Source of the DNA: an uncultured Pseudomonadota bacterium
GTDB taxonomy: Bacteria; Pseudomonadota; Gammaproteobacteria; Steroidobacterales; Steroidobacteraceae
DNA length: 64,000 nt
Reading direction: 5' to 3'
Assembly: GCA_903838705.1 (NCBI GenBank)
Contig: CAILZL010000014.1
Location: 1 to 64,000 of the forward strand
Position numbers and translations under genes: made by a program
Notes under the pieces: generated by a model
What the model was told of the DNA's origin: nothing
The model's database searches: none
Seen by the model: the letters and a program-made list of their open reading frames with translations, nothing else
Shown here: one piece after another, positions 6,920 to 47,794 of the stretch
Layout of the letters: each line of letters begins with the position of its first letter
How positions within the stretch are numbered: position 1 is the stretch's first letter

Positions 6920-6925
6920 AATTTC

Positions 6926-7651: not shown

Positions 7652-7657
7652 CGCGGT

Positions 7658-7686
7658 GCAATCAGTCATGTTTGCGATTGCTTTTT
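7658..7686 (+). terminator. Likely intrinsic terminator after hda
   Basis: GCAATC (7658-7663) pairs with GATTGC (7676-7681) and is followed by TTTTT (7682-7686). The stem is short and lies within the 3' end of the convergent permease gene, so support is moderate. Confidence 0.5.
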
Positions 7687-8433
7687 ACCCAGTGTCGCTG
7701 CCGCTAACCCGCATGCAGCCAGTGTCCAGACAATGACTGCCCCTGAGGGCAGGTCAAGTACAGCTGACAATGATAATCCAGCAGCGTAACCCGTGACCCC
7801 GATCAGATAGGCCTTTCTATACCGGCTGAAGCCGGATAGCTTGCGCGTGGCCAGCGCAGGAATAATCAGGCTTGAGAACACGAGGTACACGCCCACGAGC
7901 TGTACGGATGCGGTCACGGCAAGGGCGAAGATGCCATAAAAACCGAACCGTCCCAGTTTCTGTACCCAGCCTTGCCACAGAGCCAGCAGGATGAATGCTG
8001 ACAGGCCTCCCAGCCAGAACAACTGTGTGCTGTTCACCCACAGGATTTGCCCTACCAGCAGATCCTGCAAATGTTCGCCACCATGTGGGTTATTTGCCAA
8101 CAGCAGAATACCGCCACATGCCGCCAGAATGAACATGACGCCGATTAATGCCTCCTGATGTTCTGGTACCTTGCGTTCGGTCCAGGTCAGCAGCAGTGCA
8201 CCCAGCAGAGCAGCCACAATCGCGGCCAGCTGAACATACAGGCCACCTTCCGGTAGACCCAGTGCATCTGCCGCAATGACGCCCAATCCTGCAATCTGAG
8301 CAATGGCAAGATCAATGAAAACGATGCCACGGTCAAGTACCTGTGTACCCAATGGCACGTGTGTGAGGAGCACCAGCAGCCCTGCGATGAGCGCAGGGCC
8401 GAGAATTGCCCAGTCGAGAGCACTGAAATTCAT
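7666..8433 (-). CDS. ZnuB-like metal ABC transporter permease
   Basis: 255 aa, almost entirely hydrophobic, with seven to eight membrane helices. It belongs to the ABC-3 permease family used for Zn2+/Mn2+ import: FIDLAIAQIAGLGVIAADAL near residue 40 and VYLVFSSLIIPALATRK near residue 180 are the family's conserved cytoplasmic and membrane blocks. Its start overlaps the stop of the substrate-binding gene by 4 bases (ATGA). No ATP-binding subunit is encoded in this operon, so the transporter must use an ATPase encoded elsewhere or be incomplete. Zinc is the most likely ion, judging from the neighbours, but this is inferred. Confidence 0.88.
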   Translation of the reverse strand: MNFSALDWAILGPALIAGLLVLLTHVPLGTQVLDRGIVFIDLAIAQIAGLGVIAADALGLPEGGLYVQLAAIVAALLGALLLTWTERKVPEHQEALIGVMFILAACGGILLLANNPHGGEHLQDLLVGQILWVNSTQLFWLGGLSAFILLALWQGWVQKLGRFGFYGIFALAVTASVQLVGVYLVFSSLIIPALATRKLSGFSRYRKAYLIGVTGYAAGLSLSAVLDLPSGAVIVWTLAACGLAAATLGKKQSQT

Positions 8434-18194: not shown

Positions 18195-18212
18195 ATTTTT
18201 TATAGGTGCTCG

Positions 18213-21930: not shown

Positions 21931-24900
21931 ATGAATTATTATAATGTCCGTGTTTTGCTAACCCTGTTATTGCTCGTCTCGCTTGCAGGGATTGTCCCGG
22001 CCAATGCACAGGTTGCTTTTACTGTCGGCGGACAGGCTGCCAGTTCAGGTGGACTTTCCGGGCTTGCTCCGGGAAAGACCGTTATTCTGGTCAACAATGG
22101 TGGCGATTCCTTGCCCCTTGGTACCAATGGTGATTTCACTTTTCCGACGCCGCTGGCTTCAGGTTCAAGCTACTCGGTGACCATCGCCGTACAGCCGGGC
22201 GGCCAAGTATGTGCTGTGACTAACGGTTCCGGCATTCTTAACGCAAATGTCACCAATGTCGGTATCAACTGTGTCAGCACCTATACGGTAGGTGGCTCAA
22301 TCACTGGGCTTGCCGTATCTGGTCTGGTGCTCAAGCTTAATAATTCCACAACCAAGATCATCGCCAGTGGTGCGAGTGGCTATGTATTCTCGACAGCCCT
22401 GCCTGCCGGCACAAATTATACGGTCAGTGTCGGCATCCAGCCTGCTGGCTACAGCTGTACGCTGATCAATGGTACAGGCATGATTTCAGGTGCGGTTACT
22501 AACGCAAATGTAAGCTGCTCCAAAACCTATACGGTAGGGGGCACAATTTCCGGCCTTACTGCATCAGGGCTGATTCTCAAGCTGAATGGAAGTGGTTCAA
22601 AGATTATTTCCAGTAGTGCAAGTTCGTATGTGTTTTCGACTGCGCTGATCTCTGGCACCAGCTATGCGGTTACCATCCAGAATCAGCCTTCAGGTCTGAT
22701 CTGTCTGGTATTAAATGCGAGTGGTACTGTTGGTCTCGCCAATGTCGTGGATGCCAATGTGTCCTGTGCTCCCATTACATACACTGTGGGCGGGAGTGTG
22801 ACTGGTCTGGGCAGTGGCAAGTCCGTGACGCTGCTGAATAATGGCAGTGATGCATTATTGATCTCGGCTAATGGGCAGTTTAATTTTGCCGCTGCTCTGC
22901 CTAATGCGTCGACTTATAACGTGACGGTGAGTGCTCAGCCGACTGCTCAATTCTGTTCAGTGACTAATGGAGCCGGTAGCATTGCCGGAGCCAATGTTAC
23001 AGGAATTAGTGTGGTGTGTGTCACTGCCTATTCGGTTGGTGGGACAATCTCCGGATTGACGGTTCCCGGTCTTGAGCTTTTATTGAATGGCGCCAGCACT
23101 CAGACCATTCCGGGTGGTGCATCATCATTTACATTCAGTAACGGGCTGCCGACAGGTGCGGCCTATGTTGTGTCTGTTGGTAGTCAACCTTCAGGTCAGG
23201 TCTGCTCAGTTACGAATGGTGCCGGAAATATCAGTAATGTGGCAGTCACCAGTGTTCTGGTGCTCTGCAAAGCATCTTATTCGCTGGTGAATGGTGATAT
23301 AGGTATGGTCAGCGATCCGCTTGTTAGCCAGCAGTGGCATCTCCTGAACACCGGGCAGACGGGTTACTCGGATATATCCGGTATTGCCGGAAGCGATATC
23401 AATGCCAATCCTGTTTACAAGTCTTACGGATTTGGGGGGAAGGGTGTCACTGTTGCAGTAGTGGATTCTGGCCTGGAAATAGCCCATGAGGATCTTGCGG
23501 CAAATGTAGTGCCGGGTGGATCCTGGAATTTCACTAACAGTACAACCGATCCGACCAATACAGTCGATACAACCGGTGATCATGGAACCAGTGTAGCGGG
23601 GTTGATTGCCATGGCACGTAATACGGTTGGAGGAATCGGTGTTGCATCGGAGGCAAGGCTCAAGGGCTTCAATTATCTTTCGACACAGACAACTGCTAAT
23701 CGTATCGCTTCTCTTGGAGGATCTTCCTCCAATCCCACCAGCAATGATGTGTTCATATTCAATCAGAGTTTTGGTTCATACAACACCAGCGACACGGTCA
23801 TCAGTTCTACCGTCGAGGCGCAATACGCATCCGGTGTGACAAATTTGCGGGCTGGCAAAGGTGCCATATATGTGAAGGCATCCGGAAATGGATTTAACGC
23901 GTATGGGACGGCGGATTGTTCGGCCGCAAATAACTTGGCTTTAAGTTGCGATAATTCGAACTTTGACCCGTACAACACGATTCCTTACCAGATAGTCGCC
24001 GGGGCAGTGGATGCTTCTGGCAGCAGTTCCTATTACTCGACAGCGGGATCGTCTCTATGGGTAAGCGCACCCGGTGGTGAGTATGGTTTTAATGCGTCAG
24101 TTGCTCCTGGATATCTCGGGGTGGCGTATCAGCCTGCTATGGTCACAACGGATCAATCCGGTTGCACTAACGGCTATGCTCGTAATACGGCTGCCAGCAG
24201 TACCTTCAATCTGGGCGGTGCAAATAATTCTGGTGAAAATGCTGAATGTAATTATACAAACACATTCAATGGCACTTCTTCAGCGACGCCAGTCGTATCA
24301 GGCGTGGTTGCCTTAATTCTTGAGGCGAACCCTGCGTTAACCTGGCGCGATGTGAAATACATTCTTGCAAAGACATCTGTCAAAGCCGAGCCGAATCTCC
24401 CCGCCAAGTTCATTTCGCTCTCTAATGGATCCTATGAGGTAGTGCCTGCCTGGAAAACCAATGCTGCAGGATTCAATTATCATAATCGTTATGGTTTCGG
24501 AGTGGTGGATGCGAAAGCTGCGGTTGATCTTGCTCGTAATTACTCTTCAGGACAGTTGGGTGCATTCGCCAATACAGGCTGGATAGCCAGTTCCAACATG
24601 TCCTTGGCTATTCCAGATAACAGTGTCACAGGTGTAAACAGTTCGTTGAATGTTTCAGTGCCGGCAGTTGGTGTGGTTGAGGCTGTGCAGATCAGGGTGT
24701 CAGCGACGCATCCTAATACGGGGGATCTTGCCATTGAGCTTGTTTCGCCTTCTGGGGCACGTAGTGTGTTGAAAACAGGCGCAGATGGGTTCACGTCCAA
24801 TGCAAATCTTTCAAATATGGTGTTGCTAAGTAACGCCTTTTACGGTGAATCTGCCGCAGGTGCATGGACAATCAAGCTGGTAGATGTGGCCTCTGGCAAT

Positions 24901-24945
24901 ACGGGAACTTTTACCCGCTGGTCGGTTCGTATCTATGGCCATTGA
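21931..24945 (+). CDS. Secreted subtilisin-family (S8) protease with N-terminal repeats and P domain
   Basis: 1004 aa. A signal peptide (residues 1-27, ending VPANA) is followed by five repeats of ~80 residues, each starting YTVGG-x-I-x-GL and ending in a Cys (residues ~30-455). The S8 catalytic domain carries Asp512 (AVVDSG), His551 (GDHGTSVAG) and Ser783 (GTSSATPVVSG). A proprotein-convertase P domain closes the protein (from ~WIASSNMSLAIPD to RWSVRIYGH). No inhibitor I9-type prodomain is seen between signal and catalytic domain; a prodomain-like protein is encoded by the next gene. Extracellular proteolysis is the expected role, and the repeats may anchor the protein or bind the surface. 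Confidence 0.9.
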   Translation: MNYYNVRVLLTLLLLVSLAGIVPANAQVAFTVGGQAASSGGLSGLAPGKTVILVNNGGDSLPLGTNGDFTFPTPLASGSSYSVTIAVQPGGQVCAVTNGSGILNANVTNVGINCVSTYTVGGSITGLAVSGLVLKLNNSTTKIIASGASGYVFSTALPAGTNYTVSVGIQPAGYSCTLINGTGMISGAVTNANVSCSKTYTVGGTISGLTASGLILKLNGSGSKIISSSASSYVFSTALISGTSYAVTIQNQPSGLICLVLNASGTVGLANVVDANVSCAPITYTVGGSVTGLGSGKSVTLLNNGSDALLISANGQFNFAAALPNASTYNVTVSAQPTAQFCSVTNGAGSIAGANVTGISVVCVTAYSVGGTISGLTVPGLELLLNGASTQTIPGGASSFTFSNGLPTGAAYVVSVGSQPSGQVCSVTNGAGNISNVAVTSVLVLCKASYSLVNGDIGMVSDPLVSQQWHLLNTGQTGYSDISGIAGSDINANPVYKSYGFGGKGVTVAVVDSGLEIAHEDLAANVVPGGSWNFTNSTTDPTNTVDTTGDHGTSVAGLIAMARNTVGGIGVASEARLKGFNYLSTQTTANRIASLGGSSSNPTSNDVFIFNQSFGSYNTSDTVISSTVEAQYASGVTNLRAGKGAIYVKASGNGFNAYGTADCSAANNLALSCDNSNFDPYNTIPYQIVAGAVDASGSSSYYSTAGSSLWVSAPGGEYGFNASVAPGYLGVAYQPAMVTTDQSGCTNGYARNTAASSTFNLGGANNSGENAECNYTNTFNGTSSATPVVSGVVALILEANPALTWRDVKYILAKTSVKAEPNLPAKFISLSNGSYEVVPAWKTNAAGFNYHNRYGFGVVDAKAAVDLARNYSSGQLGAFANTGWIASSNMSLAIPDNSVTGVNSSLNVSVPAVGVVEAVQIRVSATHPNTGDLAIELVSPSGARSVLKTGADGFTSNANLSNMVLLSNAFYGESAAGAWTIKLVDVASGNTGTFTRWSVRIYGH

Positions 24946-34969: not shown

Positions 34970-37900
34970 ATGAAAATAATTAAGAACCTTGCCAATGACA
35001 GGGTTATGGATGCAATCAAGCCAAACTTGAAGCATCGTTATCAGTTTGATTGCATCACGTCGAAGTTTTCCTTGTTTGCTTTTGAAGAACTAAAGGAGTC
35101 GCTTCAAGGTTTAAGTGCTGCCAAGATGATTTTACCGGGCGAAGAGCAAAACCTGAATTTGCTTGGTGGCGACGGGGACCGCTCTGCCAGAAATCGACTG
35201 CAGGCCAGGTGGCTGGCTAATGAGTGCTCTAAGTGGATCACCAGTAAAGTCGACGTTCGACAAGCCACGGGTCCGGTACCTCAAGGTGCTGCTGTACTAC
35301 GTAACGAGTTAAGCATTCCGGAGCAAGTAGTACTTGGCTCGTTTGCGTTCAGTACGGATGGGCTCGGAATAACACCCGGAAATCCACTCAATCTCATTCA
35401 TGTGTCGGAAACGGCTGATGAAGCGGGTCAACTTGCTCAGTGGTTCGATCAGCAGTGGGCGCGGTTCCACAATAAGCCAGATGTTCGCGACTGGTTTATC
35501 AAGCAGCTCCGGATGCTTTCTGACTTCCAGGCTCCCTTTACTGTTTATGCCCTGATTCTTAACCATGTTTTTGGCGATAGGGATGACACCTTTGATGAGG
35601 AGCGCATCATCAAATCTGCCACCGGTATCCGCAATACTGTGGTTTGGAAAAAGCTCTTCAAATTTCAGCGAGATGGTGTTGTTGGCGCTATTGATAAGCT
35701 GGCGCGATTCGGCGGCTGCATCATCGCGGACAGCGTGGGTCTAGGTAAAACCTTCGAAGCATTGGCGGTGATCAAGTACCACGAGCTACGTAATGACCGT
35801 GTGCTGGTGCTGGCGCCTAAGCGGCTGCGCGAAAACTGGACTCTCTACAAAATCAACGACAAGCGAAACATCTTGGCGGCTGATCGATTTAACTATGATG
35901 TACTGAATCACACCGACTTATCACGTGAAAATGGTCATTCTGGCGATATTGATTTATCGCATGTGAATTGGGGTAACTACGATCTGGTCGTTATCGATGA
36001 GTCCCACAATTTTCGTAACAAGGCCGCTAATAAGGGAAAAGAATCCCGCTATCACCGTCTGATGCGGCAGATCATCAAGGAAGGTGTGAAGACCCGAGTG
36101 CTGATGTTGTCTGCCACGCCCGTAAATAACCGCCTGGCTGACCTTCGCAACCAAATTTCCTTTGTTACCGAAGGTGATGATACGGCCCTTCAGGAGCATG
36201 GCATCGCTAGCGTTGAACAGACTACGCGCAAGGCGCAGCTACAGTTCAATCGTTGGCTGGATCTTCAGGAACAAGACCGAACACCAACTCGTTTAGTTGA
36301 GATGCTAGGCTTCGACTACTTCACTTTGCTCGATCATTTGACCATTGCCCGCTCGCGTCGGCACGTTGAAAAATACTATGGCATACAGGAAACGGGACGC
36401 TTCCCAGATCGCTTGCGGCCCATCAATATCAAGTCCGACGTGGATCTGGCGGGGCAGTTCAGGGCTATCAAAGACATCAATCTGGAAATCCGCCGACTCA
36501 ACTTGGCTAGCTACGCTCCGCTCCGCTATGTGCTGCCAAATAAGCAGGCTGCCTACGACGCCAAATACAGCACCGAGATTCGTGATGGCGAGAGCTTCTT
36601 CCGTCAGGCGGACCGTGAAGAGAGCTTGATCCATTTACTGCGGGTTAATGTGCTTAAGCGGATGGAGAGTGCCGTGTCTTCGTTCTCGCTGACTGTGCGG
36701 CGCCAGCTCAAGGATGTAGAGGCCACGCTCGCGCAAATCGACAGTCACGTGGATGGTATCGAAGAGCTGGACATTGCTGATGTTGATATTGATGACCCTG
36801 CATTCGAGTCACTGCTGGTCGGCCGCAAAGTGAAGGTGCTATTAAGTGATGTGGATATGATCCGGTGGAAGCAGGATCTCATCGAGGACCGCAACCGCCT
36901 GGCTACATTGTTGGCTGCCGCACAACTGGTAGATGCCAGTCGCGATGCCAAACTCGCCAAGCTGCGTAACATGATTCAGCAGAAGTGTGCTAACCCGATC
37001 AATGCTGGCAATCGCAAGATTATCGTCTTCACCGCATTTTCAGACACGGCGCAATATCTCTACGCTCAGCTCGCCCAATGGGCGAAATCCACCTTGGGCA
37101 TCGACGCGGCGTTGGTTACGGGTGCGGCGGGCATTCAGACCACATTGCCGGGTCTGCGCAAGAATATGAGCTCTGTGCTGTCGGCTTTTGCGCCTCGCGC
37201 CAAGGAGCGGCCTGCAGAAATGTCAGACGAAGGTGAAATCGATCTGCTTATCGCCACCGACTGTATTTCAGAAGGTCAAAATCTCCAGGACTGTGACTGG
37301 CTTATTAATTACGATATTCACTGGAATCCTGTACGCATCATTCAGCGCTTCGGTCGAATTGATCGAATTGGCTCGCCCAACCATAGTATCCAGCTCGTCA
37401 ATTTCTGGCCCAATATGGAACTGGAGGAATACATTGGCCTGGAACAGCGTGTCAGCGGGCGCATGGTGCTGCTGGACGTGTCTGCCACAGGTGAAGAAAA
37501 TCTCATCGAGCAACAGTCTGGCGACCCCATGAATGACCTGGAGTACCGACGTAAGCAACTGCTGAAGCTGCAAGACACCGTGATCGATATGGAAGATCTG
37601 TCCAGTGGTGTGTCCATCACCGATCTGACATTAACTGACTTCCGTATCGATCTGGCTCAGTACTTAAAAGAACACCCCGGCAAGCTTGAGGCCTTACCGA
37701 TGGGTGCTTATGCGGTTACCACTAGCATCGATGCCGACATCGCTCCCGGGGTTATCTTCTGTCTGCGTGCGGAAGGTTCTGCGGCAGCCAAGGGCCAATC
37801 TTCCGATTACCCATTAACGCCTATATACCTGGTGCATGTTGGCGACGATGGCTCTGTACTTCTGCCCTATACCCAAGCCAAGCGAGTCATGGACCACTTG

Positions 37901-38164
37901 AAGCGATTGGCGCTGGGCCGAGAATTGCCCGACGACGGCGCCTGTGCCCGGTTCGATAAGCAGACCCGACAAGGCCAGGACATGAGCCACGCGCAGAAGC
38001 TGTTGGCTGCTGCAGTGGCCTCAGTGGTGGGCAAGAATGAGGAGCGGGCTGTCGCGAGTTTGTTCTTGCCCGGTGGTACACATGCAATGAAAGGCGAATT
38101 CGCTGGAAGCGGCGACTTCGAAGTCATGGCATTCATGGTAATTCTTCCCGGAACGCCAGTGTAA
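34970..38164 (+). CDS. SNF2-family helicase with degenerate PLD-like N-terminus
   Basis: 1064 aa. Superfamily 2 Snf2/RapA-type motor: DSVGLGKT (254-261), DESH (343-346), SATP (381-384), and late motifs ATDCISEGQNLQDCDWLIN and IIQRFGRIDRIGS. The first ~170 residues resemble a phospholipase-D-like nuclease domain (HRYQFDCITSKFSLFAFEEL, then VVLGSFAFSTDGLG), but the HxK catalytic pair is missing. It opens a seven-gene run and its stop overlaps the next ATG (TAATG). A dsDNA translocase is expected; a role in defence is inferred from the neighbours. The start could also be the ATG at 35006, which has GGGTT just upstream. Confidence 0.85.
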   Translation: MKIIKNLANDRVMDAIKPNLKHRYQFDCITSKFSLFAFEELKESLQGLSAAKMILPGEEQNLNLLGGDGDRSARNRLQARWLANECSKWITSKVDVRQATGPVPQGAAVLRNELSIPEQVVLGSFAFSTDGLGITPGNPLNLIHVSETADEAGQLAQWFDQQWARFHNKPDVRDWFIKQLRMLSDFQAPFTVYALILNHVFGDRDDTFDEERIIKSATGIRNTVVWKKLFKFQRDGVVGAIDKLARFGGCIIADSVGLGKTFEALAVIKYHELRNDRVLVLAPKRLRENWTLYKINDKRNILAADRFNYDVLNHTDLSRENGHSGDIDLSHVNWGNYDLVVIDESHNFRNKAANKGKESRYHRLMRQIIKEGVKTRVLMLSATPVNNRLADLRNQISFVTEGDDTALQEHGIASVEQTTRKAQLQFNRWLDLQEQDRTPTRLVEMLGFDYFTLLDHLTIARSRRHVEKYYGIQETGRFPDRLRPINIKSDVDLAGQFRAIKDINLEIRRLNLASYAPLRYVLPNKQAAYDAKYSTEIRDGESFFRQADREESLIHLLRVNVLKRMESAVSSFSLTVRRQLKDVEATLAQIDSHVDGIEELDIADVDIDDPAFESLLVGRKVKVLLSDVDMIRWKQDLIEDRNRLATLLAAAQLVDASRDAKLAKLRNMIQQKCANPINAGNRKIIVFTAFSDTAQYLYAQLAQWAKSTLGIDAALVTGAAGIQTTLPGLRKNMSSVLSAFAPRAKERPAEMSDEGEIDLLIATDCISEGQNLQDCDWLINYDIHWNPVRIIQRFGRIDRIGSPNHSIQLVNFWPNMELEEYIGLEQRVSGRMVLLDVSATGEENLIEQQSGDPMNDLEYRRKQLLKLQDTVIDMEDLSSGVSITDLTLTDFRIDLAQYLKEHPGKLEALPMGAYAVTTSIDADIAPGVIFCLRAEGSAAAKGQSSDYPLTPIYLVHVGDDGSVLLPYTQAKRVMDHLKRLALGRELPDDGACARFDKQTRQGQDMSHAQKLLAAAVASVVGKNEERAVASLFLPGGTHAMKGEFAGSGDFEVMAFMVILPGTPV

Positions 38165-38949
38165 TGGTGCTGGTATTGCGAGATGCACTTCTGGATGCCT
38201 TGGGCCTGCCCGAAAGTTGCCGGGTGGACCAGCGCGTGCCGAAGAAAATGTTGGTTGAGTATGGGGCGCCAACCACCATTGATAAGCGCTTGCTGAATGA
38301 TGCCATCGAAGAAGTAAGATGGGTTGCTGCGCTCAAACCTGGCAATATTGCTGTGCCGGCCTATCGAGATGAATCGCACGAGTACCTTGAGGTTGCGGTG
38401 CTGGTCGTGCAGGTTCGGCTATCTCATAGTCGAGAACCTCAGGTTCAGCGACTGGCGGAGCTGGTGCACCGTGCGGTACCTTATCCGGTGATACTGATGC
38501 TGGATGGGCCGCAAGGAGTAACAGTATCCCTGGCTCACAAGCGTGCAGCTCAGAACGAGGCAGGCAAGGTCGTGTTGGATGGCGACGTGCACAGCGTGGT
38601 CGTCGAAACGATTGCGCCATTCGAGGAGGCGTTCTTTCGAGCGCTTGCGCTGGATAAGCAGCCGCACGCAAATTTGATGGCCCTATATCAAGGCTGGATG
38701 GACTGTCTGACTGCTGCCGATGTTGCGCAGGTTACGGGCCAATTTAAAGTGTCGGTAGATGCCGCTACAGCTACTGCACGCAGATCGGCCCTTCAGGAAT
38801 ATCAGCGCCTTGAGCAAGAGGCGGCACGATTGCACGCGATGGCGAGCAAAGAAAAACAGATTGCAAAACAGATAGATTTCAATCTAGCGTTTAAAAGGGC
38901 TCAGACCGACTTGGCCGCAATACAGGATCAGCTGAAGGAAAGTCCATGA
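38164..38949 (+). CDS. DUF4391 protein
   Basis: 261 aa. The N-terminus resembles DUF4391: RVPKKMLVEYGAPTTIDKRL, then DAIEEVRWVAALKPGNIAVP, a central LEVAVLVVQVRLSHSREPQV and AVPYPVILML. The C-terminal ~60 residues are charged and helical, likely a coiled coil (EYQRLEQEAARLHAMASKEK). The family's role is unknown; it recurs with helicases in defence loci. It overlaps the helicase gene at its start and the DUF262 gene at its end (ATGA), so the three are translationally coupled. The size and coupling suggest a subunit or adaptor of the helicase. Confidence 0.75.
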   Translation: MVLVLRDALLDALGLPESCRVDQRVPKKMLVEYGAPTTIDKRLLNDAIEEVRWVAALKPGNIAVPAYRDESHEYLEVAVLVVQVRLSHSREPQVQRLAELVHRAVPYPVILMLDGPQGVTVSLAHKRAAQNEAGKVVLDGDVHSVVVETIAPFEEAFFRALALDKQPHANLMALYQGWMDCLTAADVAQVTGQFKVSVDAATATARRSALQEYQRLEQEAARLHAMASKEKQIAKQIDFNLAFKRAQTDLAAIQDQLKESP

Positions 38950-41072
38950 AGGCAACAGAAGCAAACTTACTCAAGTTCCTGAGAAAGTCTCCGCAGTTTG
39001 TCATCCCGATCTATCAGCGAAACTATTCGTGGACAGCAGAGCAGTGCCGGCAACTATGGTCTGACCTCATGCGTGCGGGGCGTGACGAAAAAGTCAATGG
39101 GCACTTTATTGGTTCTATCGTCTACGTGGAACGAGGGCTGTCTTCTGTCACTAGCCAAGAGGCGCTGTTGGTCATCGACGGACAGCAACGCCTGACCACC
39201 AGTACTCTGCTTATTGAGGCACTGGCCAAGCACTTTGAGGAACAAGGAATAGGCGAGTTGCTGGAGGCCTTCTCCAGCAAAAAGTTGCGCAATTACTACT
39301 TGCTGAATCCGGATGAAGACGGCGAGCGACATTTCAAACTGCTTCTGTCCGAAACAGATAAAGACACTTTGTTGGCTCTTTTGCAAAATACGCCCATGCC
39401 TGCTGAGGCGAGCAACCGCATCAATGAAAACTTCACCCTGTTTCAGGAGTTGATCGCCACCCACAAGAATGAGCTGGAGGTAATCTGTCAGGGTCTGGCC
39501 AAGCTGGTTATCGTGGATGTATCTCTGGATCGCACTCAAGACAACCCGCAATTGATCTTTGAGAGCATGAATTCCACGGGGCTAGAGCTCAGTCAGGCCG
39601 ACCTCATTCGCAACTACATCCTGATGGGTCTGGAGCCCAAGTTGCAAACCGAGTTGTACAAGGTCTACTGGCGGCCCATGGAGCGGTCGTTCGGCCAGGC
39701 AGCCTACGTGGTTCACTTCGATGCCTTCATGCGCCACTACTTGACAGCCAGGACGGGTGAAATTCCCAACGTGCGTGAGGTGTACGTAGCCTTCAAAAGC
39801 TTCGCACGTGGCCTCAAGGGCGACACTCGTGACCTGGTTACTGATATTCATGCTTATGCTTCGTATTACTGTGCCATGGCGCTGGGTACCGAGACGGATA
39901 CTGCACTCAAGCAAGCATTTCACGACTTGCGCGAGTTGAAGGTGGACGTTGCCTATCCTTTCCTGCTCGACGTCTATCACGACTACAAGCAAGGTCGCTT
40001 GGCTGCCGAGGAGGTGTTGCAAGTCGTGCGGCTGGTTGAAAGCTACGTGTTCCGACGGGCTATTTGCGCCATCCCGACGAACTCACTGAACAAGACCTTT
40101 GCCGGCATGGGGCGCACGCTCAAGAAAGATCGTTATCTGGAAAGTGTACAGGCGGCATTCCTCATGCTGCCCTCGTATCGCCGTTTCCCAACCGACGACG
40201 AGTTTGAGCGTGAAATCAAGGTCCGCGACCTGTACAACTTCCGTAGCCGCAGCTACTGGTTACGTCGCCTGGAAAACCACGGCCGCAAAGAGCGTGTCGT
40301 AGTGGAGGATTACACCATAGAGCACATCCTGCCGCAGAATGAAGTACTGTCGGGTGAGTGGCAAACAGAGTTAGGTGTAGACTGGAAGCGCATCCAGCAA
40401 ACCTGGTTGCACAGCTTGGGTAACCTCACTTTGACTGGCTACAATAGCGAATACCGCGATTATCCCTTTGCGTACAAGCGTGACAAAGTTAACGACAGGG
40501 ACGGCAACCCGGTTGGATTTGCTCATAGCCCGCTCAGGCTCAATGCCGGGCTTGGTCAAGTCAGCACCTGGAACGAAGCGGCTATCAAGTCACGCGCTGA
40601 TCGCCTTGCCACCGAGGCAGTCAAGGTATGGAGTGCACCACAACTGGCAGCAGATGTGCTGGAGGCTTATCGGCCTACTGATTCTGGTTTCATGATTAAG
40701 GAATACAGCCTCTCAGACCATCCGTATCTGGCCTCTGGTCCCATGCGTGAGCTGTTTGAGTCCCTGCGCGAAACAATACTCGCGTTGGACCCGTGCGTTA
40801 GTGAAGAATTCAAGAAGCTGTATGTCGCCTACAAGGCCGAGACCAATTTTGTTGATGTGGTGCCGCAAGCCAGGCGTTTGCGGTTATCACTGAATATGCC
40901 GTTTCACGAAATAGACGACCCCAAGGGAGTCTGTGCAGATGTCACCAATCTTGGTCGTTGGGGTAATGGCGATGTAGAGGTCGGTCTGAGCCGCCCGGAT
41001 GAACTGCCCTATGTGCTGGGTTTGATTCGTCAGTCTTTCGACCGTCAGATGGGCGGACCTCAAGACGCCTGA
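38946..41072 (+). CDS. GmrSD-like DUF262/DUF1524 protein (predicted modification-dependent nuclease)
   Basis: 708 aa. The N-terminal DUF262 (ParB-like NTPase) is seen in IPIYQRNYSW and VIDGQQRLT (DGQQR at 78-82). A DUF1524 HNH-type nuclease follows, with YTIEHILPQN (His460) and LGNLTLTGYNSEY. The last ~120 residues look like DUF5655 (MRELFESLRETILALDPCVS). GmrSD and relatives (SspE, BrxU) cut phage DNA carrying modified bases or act with phosphorothioate systems; here the two halves are fused. Placement between a helicase/DUF4391 pair and a type III methyltransferase suggests it covers phages that hide their DNA from ordinary restriction. The gap to mod is 37 bases. Confidence 0.85.
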   Translation: MKATEANLLKFLRKSPQFVIPIYQRNYSWTAEQCRQLWSDLMRAGRDEKVNGHFIGSIVYVERGLSSVTSQEALLVIDGQQRLTTSTLLIEALAKHFEEQGIGELLEAFSSKKLRNYYLLNPDEDGERHFKLLLSETDKDTLLALLQNTPMPAEASNRINENFTLFQELIATHKNELEVICQGLAKLVIVDVSLDRTQDNPQLIFESMNSTGLELSQADLIRNYILMGLEPKLQTELYKVYWRPMERSFGQAAYVVHFDAFMRHYLTARTGEIPNVREVYVAFKSFARGLKGDTRDLVTDIHAYASYYCAMALGTETDTALKQAFHDLRELKVDVAYPFLLDVYHDYKQGRLAAEEVLQVVRLVESYVFRRAICAIPTNSLNKTFAGMGRTLKKDRYLESVQAAFLMLPSYRRFPTDDEFEREIKVRDLYNFRSRSYWLRRLENHGRKERVVVEDYTIEHILPQNEVLSGEWQTELGVDWKRIQQTWLHSLGNLTLTGYNSEYRDYPFAYKRDKVNDRDGNPVGFAHSPLRLNAGLGQVSTWNEAAIKSRADRLATEAVKVWSAPQLAADVLEAYRPTDSGFMIKEYSLSDHPYLASGPMRELFESLRETILALDPCVSEEFKKLYVAYKAETNFVDVVPQARRLRLSLNMPFHEIDDPKGVCADVTNLGRWGNGDVEVGLSRPDELPYVLGLIRQSFDRQMGGPQDA

Positions 41073-41109
41073 ATTGTCTGAGCAAAAGAACGCGAAGAGA
41101 TAGCAATAC

Positions 41110-43041
41110 ATGACCATGCAGAAGATCGAAGCAAGCAGCCCTGAATCGCAGTCGGCAGATTTGGTGTCTGGAAACATCGAACAGCTCAAGGCGCTATTCC
41201 CGGAGTTGATCACCGAGGGCGAACATGGCGCAGCGGTGAATGTGGATGTGCTCAAGGCGCTGGTGGGCGACCAGACCATCACCGATGCTGATGAAAAGTA
41301 TGGCCTGAACTGGCACGGCAAACGCCGTGCTCGCCAGCTGGCGTTGACCCCTAGCACGGGCACGTTGCGCCCATGTCCCGAAGAGAGTGTGGATTGGGAT
41401 ACCACCCAGAACCTGATGATCGAAGGTGACAACCTTGAGGTGCTGAAGCTATTGCAGAAGAGCTATGCCGGAAAGGTGAAGCTTATTTATATCGATCCGC
41501 CATATAACACCGGCAAGGATTTCGTTTATCCGGATAACTTCCAGGACAACATTAAGAACTACCTGGAGTTGACTGGTCAGGTGGAAGGCGGACAGAAGAT
41601 CAGCAGCAATACCGAAGCCAGCGGGCGGTTTCATACCGACTGGCTAAATATGATCTCCCCTAGACTAAAGCTAGCAAGAAACTTGCTGCGCGAGGATGGA
41701 GCGATATTTGTATCTCTTGATGATGGTGAGGTTGCTCATCTTCGGATCATCATGAATGAAATATTTGGCCAAGAAAACTTTATTGCAACTGTAATTTGGG
41801 AGAAGAAATTTGCACCCCAGAATGACGAAAAATACTTCTCAGAGCGACATGACTTCATTATGGTGTTCGCAAAAAGCAAAGAAGAATGGCGAAGGAACCT
41901 GCTTCCGAGAAGCGAGGATGCGCAGGCACGTTACAAGAATCCAGATAATGACCCACGCGGGCCTTGGGCGTCTAGCGACCTACTTCGGATAGAGCATCGT
42001 GACAACTGTGTCTACACAATAATTTCACCTACAGGTGCAAGGTGGGTGCCTGAAGCCGGTACAAGTTGGCGACATCCCGAAGATGAAATGATGCAGCTTG
42101 TTCGGTCGGGTCAAATTTGGTTCGGTGCGGATGGCAGCAGTAAACCTAGGCGTAAGAGATATTTAGCCGAGGTAAGCGAAGGTGTTGTGCCTGAAACCAT
42201 GTGGTTCCACAAAGATTGCGGCCATAATCAGGAGGCAACTCAAGAGATAAAAACTCTCTTTAGCGATGTCGGCGTGCCATTCTCAAATCCCAAACCTGTT
42301 CGGCTTCTAAAGAGGGTTTTGGAGGTGGCTACTAATCCAAGAGCAGACGATATTGTTGTCGATTTTTTTGCTGGGTCTGGCACTACTGGGCATGCGCTTT
42401 TAGCTAAGAATGCAGAAGACGGAGCGAATAGGCGTTTTATCTTAATACAACTTCCGGAAATGCTGGATCCAAGTGTTAAGGAGCAGAGATTTGCTTCGGA
42501 GTGCTGCTCAAATCTAAGTAAGCCGCTAAAGATATCTGAACTGACCAAAGAGCGCCTGCGTCGCGCGGCTGCCAAGGTCAAAGCCGACAACCCGTTGTTT
42601 GCCGGTGATACTGGCTTTCGCGTTTTCAAACTCGATACCTCCAATATTCGAGCTTGGACTCCGCAACCCAAGGTTCTGGCGCAAGCGTTGCTGGACCACC
42701 AAGATCATTTGCTCGAAGGGCGTACAGAAACTGAGTTGCTCTATGAACTGTTGCTAAAGCTCGGTCTCGATTTGTGCGTGCCAATTGCTAAACAAGATAT
42801 CGCTGGAAAGGCGGTTCACTCAGTGGGCGGCGGCGTGTTGATGGCCTGTCTGGCAGAAAAAATCACCGCACACGAAGTCGAGGCGCTGGCCAATGGCATT
42901 GTGGCCTGGAATAAGGGGCTGGCGCCGGCCGGTGACACCACCTGCGTATTCCGCGACAGCGCCTTCGCCGATGACGTTGCCAAGACCAACATGGCAGCAA
43001 TCCTGGAGCAGAACGGCATCGCTAACGTGCGGAGCTTGTGA
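41110..43041 (+). CDS. mod: Type III restriction-modification methyltransferase subunit (Mod)
   Basis: 643 aa. Beta-class N6-adenine methyltransferase order: catalytic DPPY (129-132, in IYIDPPYNTG) comes before the SAM site FAGSGTTGHA (from 420). Between them lies the variable target-recognition region (~190-410), whose DNA is more AT-rich than both ends of the gene, hinting at exchange by recombination. A C-terminal helical part of ~150 residues follows, as in Mod proteins. It methylates adenine in a short asymmetric site, protects the host and tells Res where to act. The site cannot be predicted from sequence alone. The stop is 10 bases before the next start. Confidence 0.92.
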   Translation: MTMQKIEASSPESQSADLVSGNIEQLKALFPELITEGEHGAAVNVDVLKALVGDQTITDADEKYGLNWHGKRRARQLALTPSTGTLRPCPEESVDWDTTQNLMIEGDNLEVLKLLQKSYAGKVKLIYIDPPYNTGKDFVYPDNFQDNIKNYLELTGQVEGGQKISSNTEASGRFHTDWLNMISPRLKLARNLLREDGAIFVSLDDGEVAHLRIIMNEIFGQENFIATVIWEKKFAPQNDEKYFSERHDFIMVFAKSKEEWRRNLLPRSEDAQARYKNPDNDPRGPWASSDLLRIEHRDNCVYTIISPTGARWVPEAGTSWRHPEDEMMQLVRSGQIWFGADGSSKPRRKRYLAEVSEGVVPETMWFHKDCGHNQEATQEIKTLFSDVGVPFSNPKPVRLLKRVLEVATNPRADDIVVDFFAGSGTTGHALLAKNAEDGANRRFILIQLPEMLDPSVKEQRFASECCSNLSKPLKISELTKERLRRAAAKVKADNPLFAGDTGFRVFKLDTSNIRAWTPQPKVLAQALLDHQDHLLEGRTETELLYELLLKLGLDLCVPIAKQDIAGKAVHSVGGGVLMACLAEKITAHEVEALANGIVAWNKGLAPAGDTTCVFRDSAFADDVAKTNMAAILEQNGIANVRSL

Positions 43042-43051
43042 GGAACCCAGT

Positions 43052-44077
43052 ATGAGCAAGGACCTGACTAATTCGCCGGTCGACCGGCAGAACATCCTGA
43101 ACAACCCCTATGCACTGGCGGAAATTGAGAAGGCGGCCGGTATTCAGGGCATTCCCTTCGAGGGGAAAACGGTGGTGCTCAAGGAGCAGGTGGCGGCGTT
43201 TTTTGAGGTTACCGTCCGAACCGTGGAAAACTACCTGGAGGGCCACGCCGAAGAGCTGGCTCGCAACGGCTATGAGGTGCTGAAGGGTAACCGGCTGAAA
43301 GTATTGAAAGAATCGATTCAGGGGCTGTATGTTCCCGAAACCGATTTCGGGAACATCGCCAAGGCCCCCCAGCTGGGGGTGTTCGACTTCCGGGCTTTCC
43401 TGAACCTGGCCATGCTGGTGTCCGAAAGCGAGCGGGCCAAGTTGTTGCGCCAAGCCATTCTGGACATTGTGATCGACACGATCAACCAGCGCACCGGCGG
43501 GGGCACCAAGTACATCAACCAGCGGGACGAGGACTTCCTGCAATCTGCTTTCGTCGAGGAAAACTACCGTAAGCAGTTCACTGATGCGTTACGGGACTGC
43601 GTGGCGATGGGCAACTTCAAGTACGCCCTGTACACCGACAAGATTTACGTCAGTATTTTTCGTGAGCAGGCCAAGGAGTATCGCAAGGTGCTGCGTCTGG
43701 AACACACCGACAGCGTGCGATCTACCTTCTATGCCGAAGTGCTGGATCTGATCGCTGCTTATGAATGTGGGTTGGGCGATGCGCTGCAAAAAGAATTGAC
43801 TGCCAAGGGGCATAAGCTGAGTTATGCCGAAGTGGATGCGGTCTTTCTGGCGTTTGAGCAGCAGGCGCACTGGCGACCGCTGATCGAGAAAGCACGCCTG
43901 AAGATGGCCAGTCGCGATTTGGCCTTTCGTGATGCCTTGCATCTGCAGCTGAAGGAGTATTTAGCTCCGATACAGCGCGACGACTACGAACGCTTTCTAG
44001 GTGAGCGCAGCAAGGAGCTATCTGAGCGCCTGGAAGAAGCTAAGGATGTGATGAAACGTCTGAAGGAGCGTGGCTAG
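43052..44077 (+). CDS. RhuM-like DNA-binding protein, putative partner of the Doc toxin
   Basis: 341 aa from the ATG at 43052. The N-terminus has a helix-turn-helix pattern, VLKEQVAAFFEVTVRTVENY, as in RhuM-like and other phage-type regulators. The middle (FDFRAFLNLAMLVSESERAK) matches the block seen in RhuM-type proteins, and a charged coiled coil closes the protein (from ~SKELSERLEEAKDVMKRL). It is directly followed by a Doc toxin whose GTG start overlaps this stop (TAGTG). That order fits an antitoxin/regulator-toxin pair, but antitoxin activity is inferred from position only. A role as a regulator of the RM operon is an alternative. Confidence 0.6.
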   Translation: MSKDLTNSPVDRQNILNNPYALAEIEKAAGIQGIPFEGKTVVLKEQVAAFFEVTVRTVENYLEGHAEELARNGYEVLKGNRLKVLKESIQGLYVPETDFGNIAKAPQLGVFDFRAFLNLAMLVSESERAKLLRQAILDIVIDTINQRTGGGTKYINQRDEDFLQSAFVEENYRKQFTDALRDCVAMGNFKYALYTDKIYVSIFREQAKEYRKVLRLEHTDSVRSTFYAEVLDLIAAYECGLGDALQKELTAKGHKLSYAEVDAVFLAFEQQAHWRPLIEKARLKMASRDLAFRDALHLQLKEYLAPIQRDDYERFLGERSKELSERLEEAKDVMKRLKERG

Positions 44078-44517
44078 TGTTGCTGGTTTATCTGACCCTC
44101 GATCAAGCCATCGATATTCATGCAAAGACGGTCGAAGTCAGTGGTGGCGGTGCGCTGGGAAAACTGGACATAGGCCTCCTGGATGGAGTTCTGCAGAACA
44201 TCCAGAACGACGTTTACTATCCAACCATCGAAGATAAACTTACTCATCTGTTTTTCAGCGCCTGCAAGTTCCATTGTTTTCAAGATGGTAACAAACGGAT
44301 TGCAATTACATTGTGCGCGCAGATGCTGCTATTTAATGGATATCTGTACTGTGTTTCCAGTTTCTTGAGGGAAATGGAAAACATCAGCTATCACGTCGCG
44401 GCCGGTAATATTGATAAGGCGTTGTTGCACGAAGTGATCACCGCACATTTGAACGAAGCATCGGACAATGAAGAATTGAAAATGAAGATTTGGCATGCCA
44501 TGTCGAGGAGCGCGTAG
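44077..44517 (+). CDS. Death-on-curing (Doc) family toxin
   Basis: 146 aa with a GTG start overlapping the previous stop. It carries the Fic/Doc active site HCFQDGNKR (66-74), the Doc form HxFx(D/N)xNKR. P1 Doc phosphorylates EF-Tu and halts translation, and other Fic proteins add AMP; the Lys-containing motif favours the kinase type. The gene sits between mod and res, so the toxin could punish loss of, or damage to, the restriction system. The partner that silences it is probably the upstream RhuM-like protein, since no small Phd-type antitoxin is present. Confidence 0.85.
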   Translation: MLLVYLTLDQAIDIHAKTVEVSGGGALGKLDIGLLDGVLQNIQNDVYYPTIEDKLTHLFFSACKFHCFQDGNKRIAITLCAQMLLFNGYLYCVSSFLREMENISYHVAAGNIDKALLHEVITAHLNEASDNEELKMKIWHAMSRSA

Positions 44518-44519
44518 AC

Positions 44520-47500
44520 ATGAAGCTGCATTTTGAGCCAAACCTGGACTACCAGCTACAGGCTATCGAGTCGGTGTGCGACCTGTTCCGCGGCCAAGAG
44601 GCCTGCCGAACCGAGTTCACCGTGACCATGAAGCGACCTGATTCAAGCGGTCCGCAGCAATTTTCGCTGGGCGTGGCCGACACCGACTTAGGATTGGGCA
44701 ACCGTCTGACACTGCTGGATGATCAGTTGTTGCAGAATTTGCGCGACGTGCAGTTGCGTAATGGACTTGCGCCGGCCAGCGTGCTGGCATCCGGTGACTT
44801 CACCGTAGAAATGGAGACCGGCACCGGTAAGACCTATGTCTATCTGCGCACGATTTTCGAGTTGAACAAGCGCTACGGCTTTACCAAGTTCGTCATCGTG
44901 GTGCCGTCGGTGGCCATTAAGGAGGGCGTCTACAAGTCGCTGCAGATCACCGAAGAGCATTTCAAGAGCATGTACGCCGGCGTGCCGGTGGACTTCTTCC
45001 TGTACGACTCCAGCAAGCTGGGTCAGGTACGCAACTTTGCCACCAGTGCCAATATTCAGGTGATGGTGGTGACCGTGGGCGCTATCAATAAGAAGGAGGT
45101 GAATAACCTCTACAAGGATAGCGAGAAGACCGGCGGCGAGCGACCCATCGACTTGATCAAGGCCACTCGCCCGATTGTTATTGTGGATGAGCCACAAAGC
45201 GTGGATGGCGGTCTTAGTGGTGCCGGTAAGACGGCGCTGGATGCGATGAATCCACTTTGCACGCTACGCTATTCGGCAACCCATGCTGATAAACATCACA
45301 TGGTGTATCGCCTGAATGCGGTGGACGCGTATGAGCGCAAGTTAGTAAAGCAGATCGAAGTGGCGGCAGCCACGGTGGAGGACGCATACAACAAGCCCTA
45401 TGTGCGGCTGACCGGGGTGAGCAACAAAAGGGGCAGCATTACCGCCAAAGTAGAATTGCATGTTCGAACGGCCAGTGGCGTTAAGCCGCAGGAGCTGACT
45501 GTTAGTGATGGTGATGATCTTGAGCAATGGGCCAAGCGTGCCATCTATGCCGACTTCCGCATTGGTGAAATCAGCACGGCCAAAGGCAGTGAGTTCATGG
45601 GGCTGCACTTTCCCGGTGGTGAGGTTTATCTGGCGATCGGTCAGGCGCATGGTGATGTAGATGCACTGGCTATACAGCGGCAGATGATTCGTCGCACGAT
45701 CAGGGAGCATCTGGAAAAGGAAAAGCTGCTCAAGCCAAAGGGCATTAAGGTGTTGTCGCTTTTCTTCGTTGAATCAGTGGCTCGCTACCGCCAGTACGAT
45801 GCAGATGGCAATGCAAAGAAAGGCGACTATGCGCGAATCTTCGAAGAAGAGTATCGGCACGCAGCTAAGCTGCCGACATTTCAGGGGCTGTTCGACAAGG
45901 TTGATCTGAACCAGGCGGTCGAAGAAGTGCACGACGGCTACTTTTCTATCGACAAGAAGGGACGCTGGGCTGAACCTGAACTCGACAAGGACGGTGCCCT
46001 GAAGAACGAAGGCAGTCGAGCGGACGCAGAGCGCGGCTACAACTTGATCATGAAAGAAAAGGAAAAATTGCTGAGTTTCGAAACGCCGCTCAAGTTCATC
46101 TTCTCCCATTCGGCCCTGAAGGAGGGCTGGGATAGTCCCAATGTATTTCAGATATGCGCACTGCGTGAAATGGGAAGCGAGCGCGAACGTCGGCAGACGT
46201 TGGGTCGTGGCTTGCGCCTGTGTGTAAACCAGAACGGCGAACGGGTACGTGGCTTTGAGGTCAACCGGCTGACTGTCATCGCCATGGAGTCCTACGAAGA
46301 ATTTGCCGAGAATCTGCAAAAGGAAATCGAAGCCGACACCGGCATTCGTTTCGGCATTGTCGAGCTGCATCAGTTCGCCAACATTACCGTGACCACAGAC
46401 GGCAAGATGACACCTTTGGGCGTGGATCAATCCAAAACTCTATGGGACCACCTGAAGGCTGCCGGCCATATCGATGCTAAGGGCAAGGTGCAAGACTCGT
46501 TGAAGCAAGCCCTGAAAGACGGCGCGCTTGTGTTACCTGAAGCTTTTGAGCCATATCGCGGACAGGTCGCCGATTTGCTGCGCAAGGTGACGGGTCGTAT
46601 TGAAATTAAAAATGCCGATGAGCGCCAGCCAGTTGCCTTGCGCAAGAGTGCTGATGGCAAGGCGATTGTCTTGAGTGATGACTTTAAGCAGCTATGGAAT
46701 CGCATCAAACACAAGACCACCTATCGTGTTCAATTCGATAACGCCAGACTCATTAAGGATTGCACGTTTGAAGTTGCGAAGGCCCCGGCCATCGCCAAAG
46801 CACGATTGCAGTGGCGTAAGGCTGACATTGCGATTGGTAAGGCTGGAGTCGAAGCGATTGAGAAGGCAGGTGCAGCGACCATAGTGCTGGGTGAGGCTGA
46901 TGTTGAGCTACCAGACTTGTTGACTGACCTGCAGGATCGCACCCAGCTGACGCGACGCACGCTGGTGAGGGTGCTAACCGAGTGCGGACGCCTCGATGAC
47001 TTCAAGCGAAACCCGCAACAGTTCATCGAGCAAACGGCCGAAATCATCAATCGCTGCAAGCGTATGGCATTGGTCGACGGCATCCGCTACGAAAAATTGG
47101 GTGACGATCATGTCTATGTGCAGGAGCTCTTCGAGCAGGAGGAGCTGAGTGGTTACTTGAAGAACATGCTCCGCGACACCAGGAAGTCAATTTACGAGCA
47201 TGTGGTTTTTGATTCGTCCATCGAGCGCGACTTTGCGGATGCGCTGGAAAAGAACCAAGATGTATTGCTGTACGCCAAGCTACCGGGCTGGTTCAAGGTG
47301 CCCACCCCATTGGGTAGCTACAACCCTGACTGGGCTGTGCTGATCCAGAAGGACGGTATGCAACGGCTCTATTTCGTGGTCGAGACCAAGAGCAGCCTAT
47401 TCACTGGTGACATGCGTAACAAGGAAAGCGCCAAGATCGAGTGTGGTAAGGCGCACTTCAAAGCGCTCGCGGTGGGTGAAAATCCGGCGCGTTATGAGGT

Positions 47501-47531
47501 TGCCAGATCGATCAATGATTTTATTGTTTGA
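44520..47531 (+). CDS. res: Type III restriction endonuclease subunit (Res)
   Basis: 1003 aa from the ATG at 44520, 2 bases after the Doc stop, with GAGGAG upstream. SF2 helicase motifs: Walker A METGTGKT (98-105), DEPQ (223-226), and motif VI ERRQTLGRGLRL. A PD-(D/E)xK nuclease is at the C-terminus: NPDWAVL with Asp937, then FVVETKSS with Glu955 and Lys957. Res binds Mod dimers, hydrolyses ATP, and cuts near sites once complexes on inversely oriented sites meet. All expected residues are present, so a working endonuclease is likely. In classical loci res directly follows mod; here two genes separate them. Confidence 0.93.
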   Translation: MKLHFEPNLDYQLQAIESVCDLFRGQEACRTEFTVTMKRPDSSGPQQFSLGVADTDLGLGNRLTLLDDQLLQNLRDVQLRNGLAPASVLASGDFTVEMETGTGKTYVYLRTIFELNKRYGFTKFVIVVPSVAIKEGVYKSLQITEEHFKSMYAGVPVDFFLYDSSKLGQVRNFATSANIQVMVVTVGAINKKEVNNLYKDSEKTGGERPIDLIKATRPIVIVDEPQSVDGGLSGAGKTALDAMNPLCTLRYSATHADKHHMVYRLNAVDAYERKLVKQIEVAAATVEDAYNKPYVRLTGVSNKRGSITAKVELHVRTASGVKPQELTVSDGDDLEQWAKRAIYADFRIGEISTAKGSEFMGLHFPGGEVYLAIGQAHGDVDALAIQRQMIRRTIREHLEKEKLLKPKGIKVLSLFFVESVARYRQYDADGNAKKGDYARIFEEEYRHAAKLPTFQGLFDKVDLNQAVEEVHDGYFSIDKKGRWAEPELDKDGALKNEGSRADAERGYNLIMKEKEKLLSFETPLKFIFSHSALKEGWDSPNVFQICALREMGSERERRQTLGRGLRLCVNQNGERVRGFEVNRLTVIAMESYEEFAENLQKEIEADTGIRFGIVELHQFANITVTTDGKMTPLGVDQSKTLWDHLKAAGHIDAKGKVQDSLKQALKDGALVLPEAFEPYRGQVADLLRKVTGRIEIKNADERQPVALRKSADGKAIVLSDDFKQLWNRIKHKTTYRVQFDNARLIKDCTFEVAKAPAIAKARLQWRKADIAIGKAGVEAIEKAGAATIVLGEADVELPDLLTDLQDRTQLTRRTLVRVLTECGRLDDFKRNPQQFIEQTAEIINRCKRMALVDGIRYEKLGDDHVYVQELFEQEELSGYLKNMLRDTRKSIYEHVVFDSSIERDFADALEKNQDVLLYAKLPGWFKVPTPLGSYNPDWAVLIQKDGMQRLYFVVETKSSLFTGDMRNKESAKIECGKAHFKALAVGENPARYEVARSINDFIV

Positions 47532-47717: not shown

Positions 47718-47794
<77 letters not shown>

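Follow-up and report, generated by a model that had tools for sequence, protein, structure and literature searches.

SNF2, DUF4391, Mod and Res form a conserved gene set with exchangeable guest genes in a restriction-modification operon of a Steroidobacteraceae bacterium

What kind of system is encoded by seven consecutive genes that combine a helicase, a DUF4391 protein, a type III restriction-modification (RM) pair, a type IV nuclease and a toxin-type unit? The question is raised by a stretch of 64,000 nucleotides (nt) from an uncultured Pseudomonadota bacterium of the family Steroidobacteraceae (GenBank assembly GCA_903838705.1, contig CAILZL010000014.1, positions 1 to 64,000 of the forward strand; hereinafter, the window), in which the seven genes occupy positions 34970-47531. 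A preliminary description of this DNA treated all seven as one compound defense system. Comparison across genomes does not bear this out: four of the genes, namely SNF2, DUF4391, Mod and Res, are co-conserved, and the other three come and go. To judge by the sequence, the window probably contains an extended type III RM operon with two embedded guests, one combination among many.

All seven frames are uninterrupted and lie on the forward strand, and the junctions are spaced as originally claimed, at -1 (TAATG), -4 (ATGA), 37, 10, -1 (TAGTG) and 2 nt in gene order. The conserved part starts with gene 1 (34970-38164, 1064 amino acids (aa)), an SNF2-type helicase/translocase with an N-terminal PLD-like domain that corresponds to the PADLOC model C3a139 (‘HKD+Snf2’) and contains the motifs GLGKT and DESH, followed by gene 2, the DUF4391 protein (38164-38949, 261 aa; PF14335, 212 bits, 1e-62). 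Gene 4 (41110-43041, 643 aa; MTase_III, 778 bits) is the type III N6/N4 methyltransferase (Mod) and contains DPPY and FAGSG. Gene 7 (44520-47531, 1003 aa; REase_III, 1337 bits, with ResIII and RE_endonuc) is the type III restriction subunit (Res), in which TGTGKT, DEPQ, PDW and ETK mark a helicase motor and a PD-(D/E)XK endonuclease; its nearest solved structure by sequence is EcoP15I Res (4zcf, 6.5e-63). The first guest, gene 3 (38946-41072, 708 aa), located between DUF4391 and Mod, is a type IV GmrSD protein with a C-terminal DUF5655 (PADLOC Orf5, 621 bits, and HEC-06, 229 bits; Pfam PF03235, 6e-37, and PF07510, 3.5e-22), with DGQQR and an HNH-type segment. The second guest, located between Mod and Res, consists of gene 5 (43052-44077, 341 aa; PDC-M59A in PADLOC, 2.3e-100), the partner of a Doc protein, and gene 6 (44077-44517, 146 aa; PDC-M59B, 1.5e-37), a Doc-family protein with the motif HCFQDGNKR and a match to the Fic fold (PF02661, 2.8e-11), which scores 34.9 bits against TIGR01550, below the cutoff of 38.65. 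The motifs listed for SNF2, GmrSD, Mod, Doc and Res are those that we take to be catalytic. Pfam and PADLOC agree with the families that had been named for these six proteins (SNF2, DUF4391, GmrSD, type III Mod, Fic/Doc and type III Res), and the description of the locus as a defense operon that has type III RM as its basis and contains a type IV system and a toxin-type unit stands. No HEPN gene was detected among the seven in the Pfam scan.

The evidence for a four-gene core comes from 84,980 species genomes, which were scanned with an alignment of DUF4391 and yielded 301 relatives. The top 80 of these were analyzed together with as much as 10 kb of flanking DNA on either side, and in 63 of these nearest loci the genes for SNF2, DUF4391, Mod and Res follow one another in this order, on one strand. 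Of the 17 incomplete loci, 14 are truncated at a contig end, which in two cases falls inside a guest between SNF2 and DUF4391; one (L063) is interrupted by a long opposite-strand frame, by eye a transposase, shortly after the SNF2-DUF4391 pair, and two (L089 and L090) have a decayed SNF2 gene. Since these 80 loci were chosen via DUF4391 and overrepresent close relatives, two even samples were used as well, one of 369 genomes of the class, the source genome included, and one of 398 genomes of the phylum, picked via SNF2 and sharing with the former the source genome and one more. In the phylum sample, SNF2 is present in 21 genomes, 16 of them with all four genes, 4 cut by contig ends and 1 a variant (L182); DUF4391 adjoins SNF2 in 20 of the 21 loci. 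Across the class sample, DUF4391 exceeds the cutoff in 13 genomes, SNF2 (C3a139, E to 1e-60) in 15, and both in 11. All four genes are present in 8 of the 13 class DUF4391 loci, in the usual order in 7; among the others, L026 starts at the very end of a contig, L028 and L029 are truncated, and L030 is in pieces. Four class genomes have SNF2 only: G183; G254; G329, where the gene lies at a contig end; and G046, with a distant SNF2 and no DUF4391.

Plasmids present the same picture. Of the 12 plasmid records with DUF4391, 10 were opened, one of them lacking annotation; the helicase-DUF4391-methyltransferase trio is found in all nine annotated records, with a Res-sized DEAD/DEAH helicase next in seven. 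A search with SNF2 gave 108 plasmid records at E to 1e-60, and the three that were opened beyond those found with DUF4391, an Escherichia coli plasmid among them, all carry the four genes. Combined, the annotated records contain the trio in 12 of 12 cases and the Res-sized helicase next to it in 10, and the hosts include an archaeon and E. coli. The E. coli plasmid pHS30-1 (L193) carries a plain four-gene core, and an SNF2 gene of the window kind is found on at least 14 E. coli plasmid records; a plain core on such a plasmid would ease study in a laboratory strain. In eight plasmid copies (L140, L142, L143, L145-L148 and L195), a small gene of ~65-85 aa, annotated as helix-turn-helix protein, transcription factor or hypothetical, lies just upstream of SNF2 and could be a regulator; the 113 nt upstream of SNF2 in the window leave no room for it.

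The distances between the core proteins are correlated as well (56 rows, the window included), with r of 0.82-0.85 among SNF2, DUF4391 and Res and of 0.54-0.62 with Mod; none of 2000 permutations matched any of these values, in a test that ignores kinship. Such correlations are expected of parts that travel together and hence are no proof of contact by themselves. The preliminary description, in noting the recurrence of helicase, DUF4391, mod and res in defense islands, touched on the real core, which was not separated there from the guests.

The remaining genes behave differently. With a slot scored as occupied when the junction gap is at least 400 nt, 49 of the 63 complete loci have one or more such junctions and 14 have none; slot A (SNF2/DUF4391) is occupied in 18 loci, slot B (DUF4391/Mod) in 16 and slot C (Mod/Res) in 29. 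Guest families were derived from forward frames of at least 140 aa that start near the gap; under a looser rule, forward frames of at least 80 aa fill half or more of all 63 gaps, although frames this short may be due to chance. Names were obtained from 20 representatives compared with Pfam, 10 of them also with PADLOC, rather than from every copy. Slot A accommodates a GmrSD_N/HEC-05 protein, IetA with IetS, a UvrD-like protein and AAA_12; slot B, AbiLi/AbiLii (RloA/RloB), the window-type GmrSD, DUF6988, an SF1-type helicase and Abi_2; and slot C, SoFic, true RhuM, YhcG, DarG, Schlafen AlbA_2, PLD, Abi_2, Bro-N and PDC-M59A/B. Two of the 20 representatives, those of slot B in L077 and L082, had no match. 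The guest families are mostly slot-specific (66 placements; 0 of 5000 shuffles, with kinship uncorrected), with three families occurring in two slots. They are often tightly fitted, frequently at -4: among 64 occupied slots, 50 have an upstream junction no longer than 60 nt, and 43 have a downstream junction within this limit. Mapped on a tree of 61 SNF2 proteins, the guests changed at least 13 times in slot A, at least 15 times in slot B and at least 21 times in slot C, which are rough numbers given that some guest-holding slots, e.g. in L065 and L069, were scored as empty. Slot C of L065 (12819-13325) and L069 (14883-15389) contains a frame of ~166 aa that, by eye, presumably resembles a gamma-glutamylcyclotransferase-like protein, and in L177 a DUF2130 protein (6371-7780, reverse strand) between DUF4391 and Mod might be a further guest.

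The two guests of the window follow this pattern: GmrSD and PDC-M59A/Doc are embedded cargo, exchangeable between loci. The window-type GmrSD is found in 2 of the 63 complete relatives (L069 and L084), in slot B and with 78% identity to the window protein, and PDC-M59 in two others (L075 and L104), never together with it. Adjacent M59A and M59B genes, as in the window, define the PADLOC candidate PDC-M59. The window pair is 83% (M59A) and 81% (M59B) identical to that of L075, the SNF2 and Res proteins of which are 75% and 67% identical, respectively. The pair recurs in L032-L034, L075, L104, L115, L179 and L183, and its hosts differ: it occupies slot C in L104, L179 and L183, lies between hsdS and hsdR of type I systems in L033 and L034, and, on an Ilyobacter plasmid, follows a type III Res gene. 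Genome G323 has it in a 20 kb stretch without any match to the core, ~2 Mb along the contig from its own core; at that place (L032, 9476-12759), the pair is next to a GmrSD_N-like gene (133 bits to a slot guest family). Overall, M59A is present in 4 of the 369 class genomes. The unit between Mod and Res had been described as ‘RhuM-like’/Doc; the Doc half holds (PF02661, PDC-M59B), and the RhuM half does not. Gene 5 was rejected as RhuM (PF13310) on two grounds: Pfam reports no family for it, and when gene 5 and six relatives were aligned by hhalign, as a profile, to seven RhuM-cluster proteins from related loci (three checked against PF13310), the probability was 4% over 29 columns, so that the label is unsupported by sequence.

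At the place where HxK of the PLD motif is expected, gene 1 has P-Q-G, with the GS of the motif present; near relatives have an invariant P-Q instead of HxK and mostly keep GS, and in farther relatives the letters are others, likewise without HxK. With HxK missing and no Pfam PLD match in the window protein, gene 1 was rejected as an active PLD/HKD nuclease (HxK(x)nGSxN); of the earlier ‘SNF2/PLD-like’ label, the first part holds and the second applies only to a domain devoid of these features. Among the 108 SNF2 proteins in which the region is covered (it is not in L091 and L104), HxK is absent in 104, of which 103 are located beside DUF4391 and 98 have a Mod frame in view; where Mod or DUF4391 was not seen, the locus is at a contig end or, in L063, carries the insertion. 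The four proteins with HxK are those of L116, L117 and L182 and the distant L120. The L116 protein matches PLDc_2 at 6e-10, and in both L116 and L182, SNF2 has a type IIG-like Eco57I methylase as its partner. These SNF2 genes with intact PLD and their partners (L116, 4604-10802; L117, 2-5144; L182, 7954-15237) might represent a two-gene defense pair related to the type III-linked form.

DUF4391 resembles little else. It has no other credible Pfam family and matches no PADLOC or NCBIfam model (the SNF2 protein is modeled in PADLOC). The comparison with solved structures gave nothing useful for DUF4391 (best E 0.18) and no match for the N-terminus of SNF2 or for the L116 partner. No match to DUF4391 was found in the phage collection, and there are three relatives in viral contigs. 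The DUF4391-like stretch of the L116 partner shows, by eye, a possible nuclease-like pattern.

How might the core operate? In type III enzymes, it is established that Mod marks host DNA and that Mod and Res together cut unmarked DNA. Given the families and the intact motifs, the same would hold here, with Mod marking the host DNA and Mod plus Res recognizing and cutting DNA without the mark. SNF2 and DUF4391 would be a constant motor-plus-adaptor module that acts with this pair: SNF2 would translocate on DNA or remodel it at Mod-bound sites, and DUF4391 would connect SNF2 to the methyltransferase, as a detached link between methylase and motor. The presence of HxK beside the type IIG-like methylase and its absence beside DUF4391 and Mod lead to the proposal of a hand-over, in which Res would have assumed the nuclease job once held by the PLD domain of SNF2; in the relatives L116, L117 and L182, the PLD domain would cut, and in the type III branch, Res would cut and the PLD domain would have decayed to a binding domain. 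The guests would share the core transcript. The GmrSD protein, in slot B, would cleave phage DNA that carries modifications; in slot C, PDC-M59A/Doc would act as a toxin unit restrained by its M59A partner. As a tentative overall reading, we suggest that SNF2-DUF4391-Mod-Res is a distinct, mobile, four-gene, ATP-driven class of restriction systems, present in ~5% of the sampled phylum genomes. Its ancestor may have been an SNF2-PLD/type IIG-methylase system from which the DUF4391 domain became detached, which took up a type III Mod-Res pair and in which the PLD nuclease decayed; the three junctions would serve as addressed bays for exchangeable guest defenses.

Several observations weigh against SNF2-DUF4391 as a module that acts with Mod and Res, and some of them favor, instead, an SNF2-DUF4391 pair that is itself an embedded, independent two-gene defense system riding with type III RM, the true host being Mod-Res alone. 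A type III Res of the window family (E to 1e-60) is present in 26 class genomes, 16 of which have no DUF4391 match, which means that the pair is not required for the type III enzyme as such; the Mod/Res junction holds cargo in 5 of the 7 loci opened among these 16 genomes, and the class locus L027 has a different gene order, Mod-x-Res-SNF2-DUF4391. The class locus L031 has a DUF4391 fragment without any core neighbor, and two near-identical loci of Chlorobiaceae metagenome-assembled genomes (L089 and L090) retain Mod next to a 52-residue SNF2 remnant and a split DUF4391. The correlated distances could stem from common inheritance of one island. The ancestry proposed for DUF4391 is affected as well: the N-terminus of the L116 partner is only weakly similar to DUF4391 (Pfam 8e-5, below the cutoff); the L117 partner, a putative methylase, is a truncated frame with an N-terminus like that of L116; and the L182 partner is linked to DUF4391 only through its match to L116, as the DUF4391 profile did not report it. 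No Res follows the L182 pair over ~4 kb downstream; this absence is shown by L182 only, as the sequences of L116 and L117 stop within the partner gene or at its end. Still, an independent pair appears unlikely: in the loci examined, SNF2-DUF4391 is always accompanied by a DNA methyltransferase gene, apart from loci at contig ends and the interrupted one; it keeps its place in all 63 complete relatives while the guests change at least 13 to at least 21 times per slot, and these DUF4391-picked loci agree with the SNF2-picked phylum sample, in which 16 of the 21 loci are complete and 4 are cut.

Two other readings have far less to recommend them. That all seven genes make up one integrated system is suggested by the tight junctions and common direction, and PMC3710099 proposes a logic of several defense levels for RM operons that carry RhuM or Doc. 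Yet the full set occurs in 0 of the 63 complete relatives, 0 of the 15 other complete loci of the phylum sample, and no other examined locus, the closest being L123 with GmrSD, Mod, RhuM and Res; moreover, GmrSD and M59A/B are found separately, and in different hosts, which makes a seven-gene system highly improbable. The preliminary description had itself named rare co-occurrence of the genes, or conservation of mod and res alone, as observations that would count against it, and this is largely what is found, except that SNF2, DUF4391, Mod and Res stay together while the rest vary. Equally hard to credit is a divergent system of the DISARM, Hma or BREX type built around the SNF2 helicase. Gene 1 does score against the DrmD, HmaA and BrxHI models, but the DrmD score is 152 bits against a cutoff of 610, all these scores are far below that for C3a139, and the other six proteins have no such match among the best 25 per protein. 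DISARM (DrmA, DrmB, DrmC or DrmMI with DrmD) was rejected given that gene 1 alone matches, far under the DrmD cutoff, and Hma (helicase, methylase and ATPase) given that gene 1 alone matches HmaA, and weakly; no further DISARM, Hma or BREX core gene was found in the operon among these matches. An extended type III RM operon with two guests remains our preferred reading, and a probable one.

The operon is followed by a tRNA-Pro (CGG) gene on the reverse strand (47718-47794). Of 7 stretches examined from the same family, 6 have tRNA-Pro at most 3 kb downstream of ispB, and in 4 it directly adjoins ispB; beyond tRNA-Pro, the genes differ, and the other proteins of the window were not found there in these seven stretches, two of which are short. 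The surroundings of tRNA-Pro look like a variable site. No repeat of the tRNA of 12 nt or more, which would mark an integration, was found elsewhere in the window; Rfam reports only the tRNA in the operon region. Consensus promoters (8 in the region against 9.1 in shuffles) and terminators (11 against 12.5) are no more numerous than in shuffled sequence and hence say nothing on transcripts. Elsewhere in the window, two adjacent reverse-strand genes (16218-20795) encode TPR repeats and a glycosyltransferase family 41 domain, and positions 21931-24945 encode a large subtilase with a proprotein-convertase P-domain.

An annotation as ‘type III RM’ would overlook the two constant partners of Mod and Res. 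DUF4391 next to SNF2 marks the system in 20 of the 398 phylum genomes as well as on plasmids of hosts as far apart as E. coli and an archaeon. Should the two proteins belong to the enzyme, type III restriction would possess a second motor, one for which no assay was found. The slot-specific guests are a ready list of candidate defense genes, and the absence of HxK offers a testable explanation for the possible transfer of a nuclease role from one subunit to another. To us, the two constant subunits and the apparent nuclease hand-over are the most interesting aspects of the locus.

With respect to known systems, the four-gene set is apparently widespread and unnamed. No description of SNF2-DUF4391-Mod-Res was found in the open-licence PMC literature, although subscription papers or REBASE may hold one; among 5.39 million papers, a single one mentions DUF4391, as a table entry. 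That defense genes are embedded in immune operons is already established. The term ‘guilt-by-embedding’ refers to defense genes located inside immune operons, Hma among them (Payne et al., preprint 10.1101/2024.01.29.577857, as cited in PMC12255303), and other sources report nuclease effectors inside BREX loci (PMC12839542), nucleases with Dnd systems (PMC10853773), and the PDC and HEC candidates, with antiviral activity stated for HEC-06 (PMC12988326). Like the ‘guilt-by-embedding’ operons, the window has guests between core genes, and these match the PADLOC models HEC-06 and PDC-M59; its host differs, being type III with SNF2-DUF4391 and with three slots that hold different guest sets. According to PMC12255303, DarTG2 is embedded between hsdS and hsdR of type I RM, which has in common with the window a toxin unit inside an RM operon; there, however, the host is type I and a regulator gene comes first, a gene that the 113 nt upstream of the window operon cannot fit. 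The idea of multi-level defense is already in print in PMC3710099, mentioned above, for RM operons with RhuM/Doc and PrrC/RloC; these operons share with the seven genes RM and a Doc-type toxin, whereas the seven genes include no HEPN gene in the Pfam scan and no RhuM, and are of type III with SNF2-DUF4391. The SNF2(PLD) pairs with a type IIG-like methylase (L116 and L182, and probably L117) have a homologous SNF2 and, in L116, a DUF4391-like stretch; they differ in that PLD is intact, the DUF4391-like stretch is fused to the methylase, and no type III Res was seen. The type III RM enzymes EcoP15I and EcoP1I (Mod2Res1) have the same Mod and Res domains and motifs as the window, which adds to them the two constant genes, SNF2 and DUF4391, and the guests inside the operon. 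What is new here is an SNF2 PLD-like domain that lacks HxK beside DUF4391 and keeps it beside a (probable) type IIG-like methylase.

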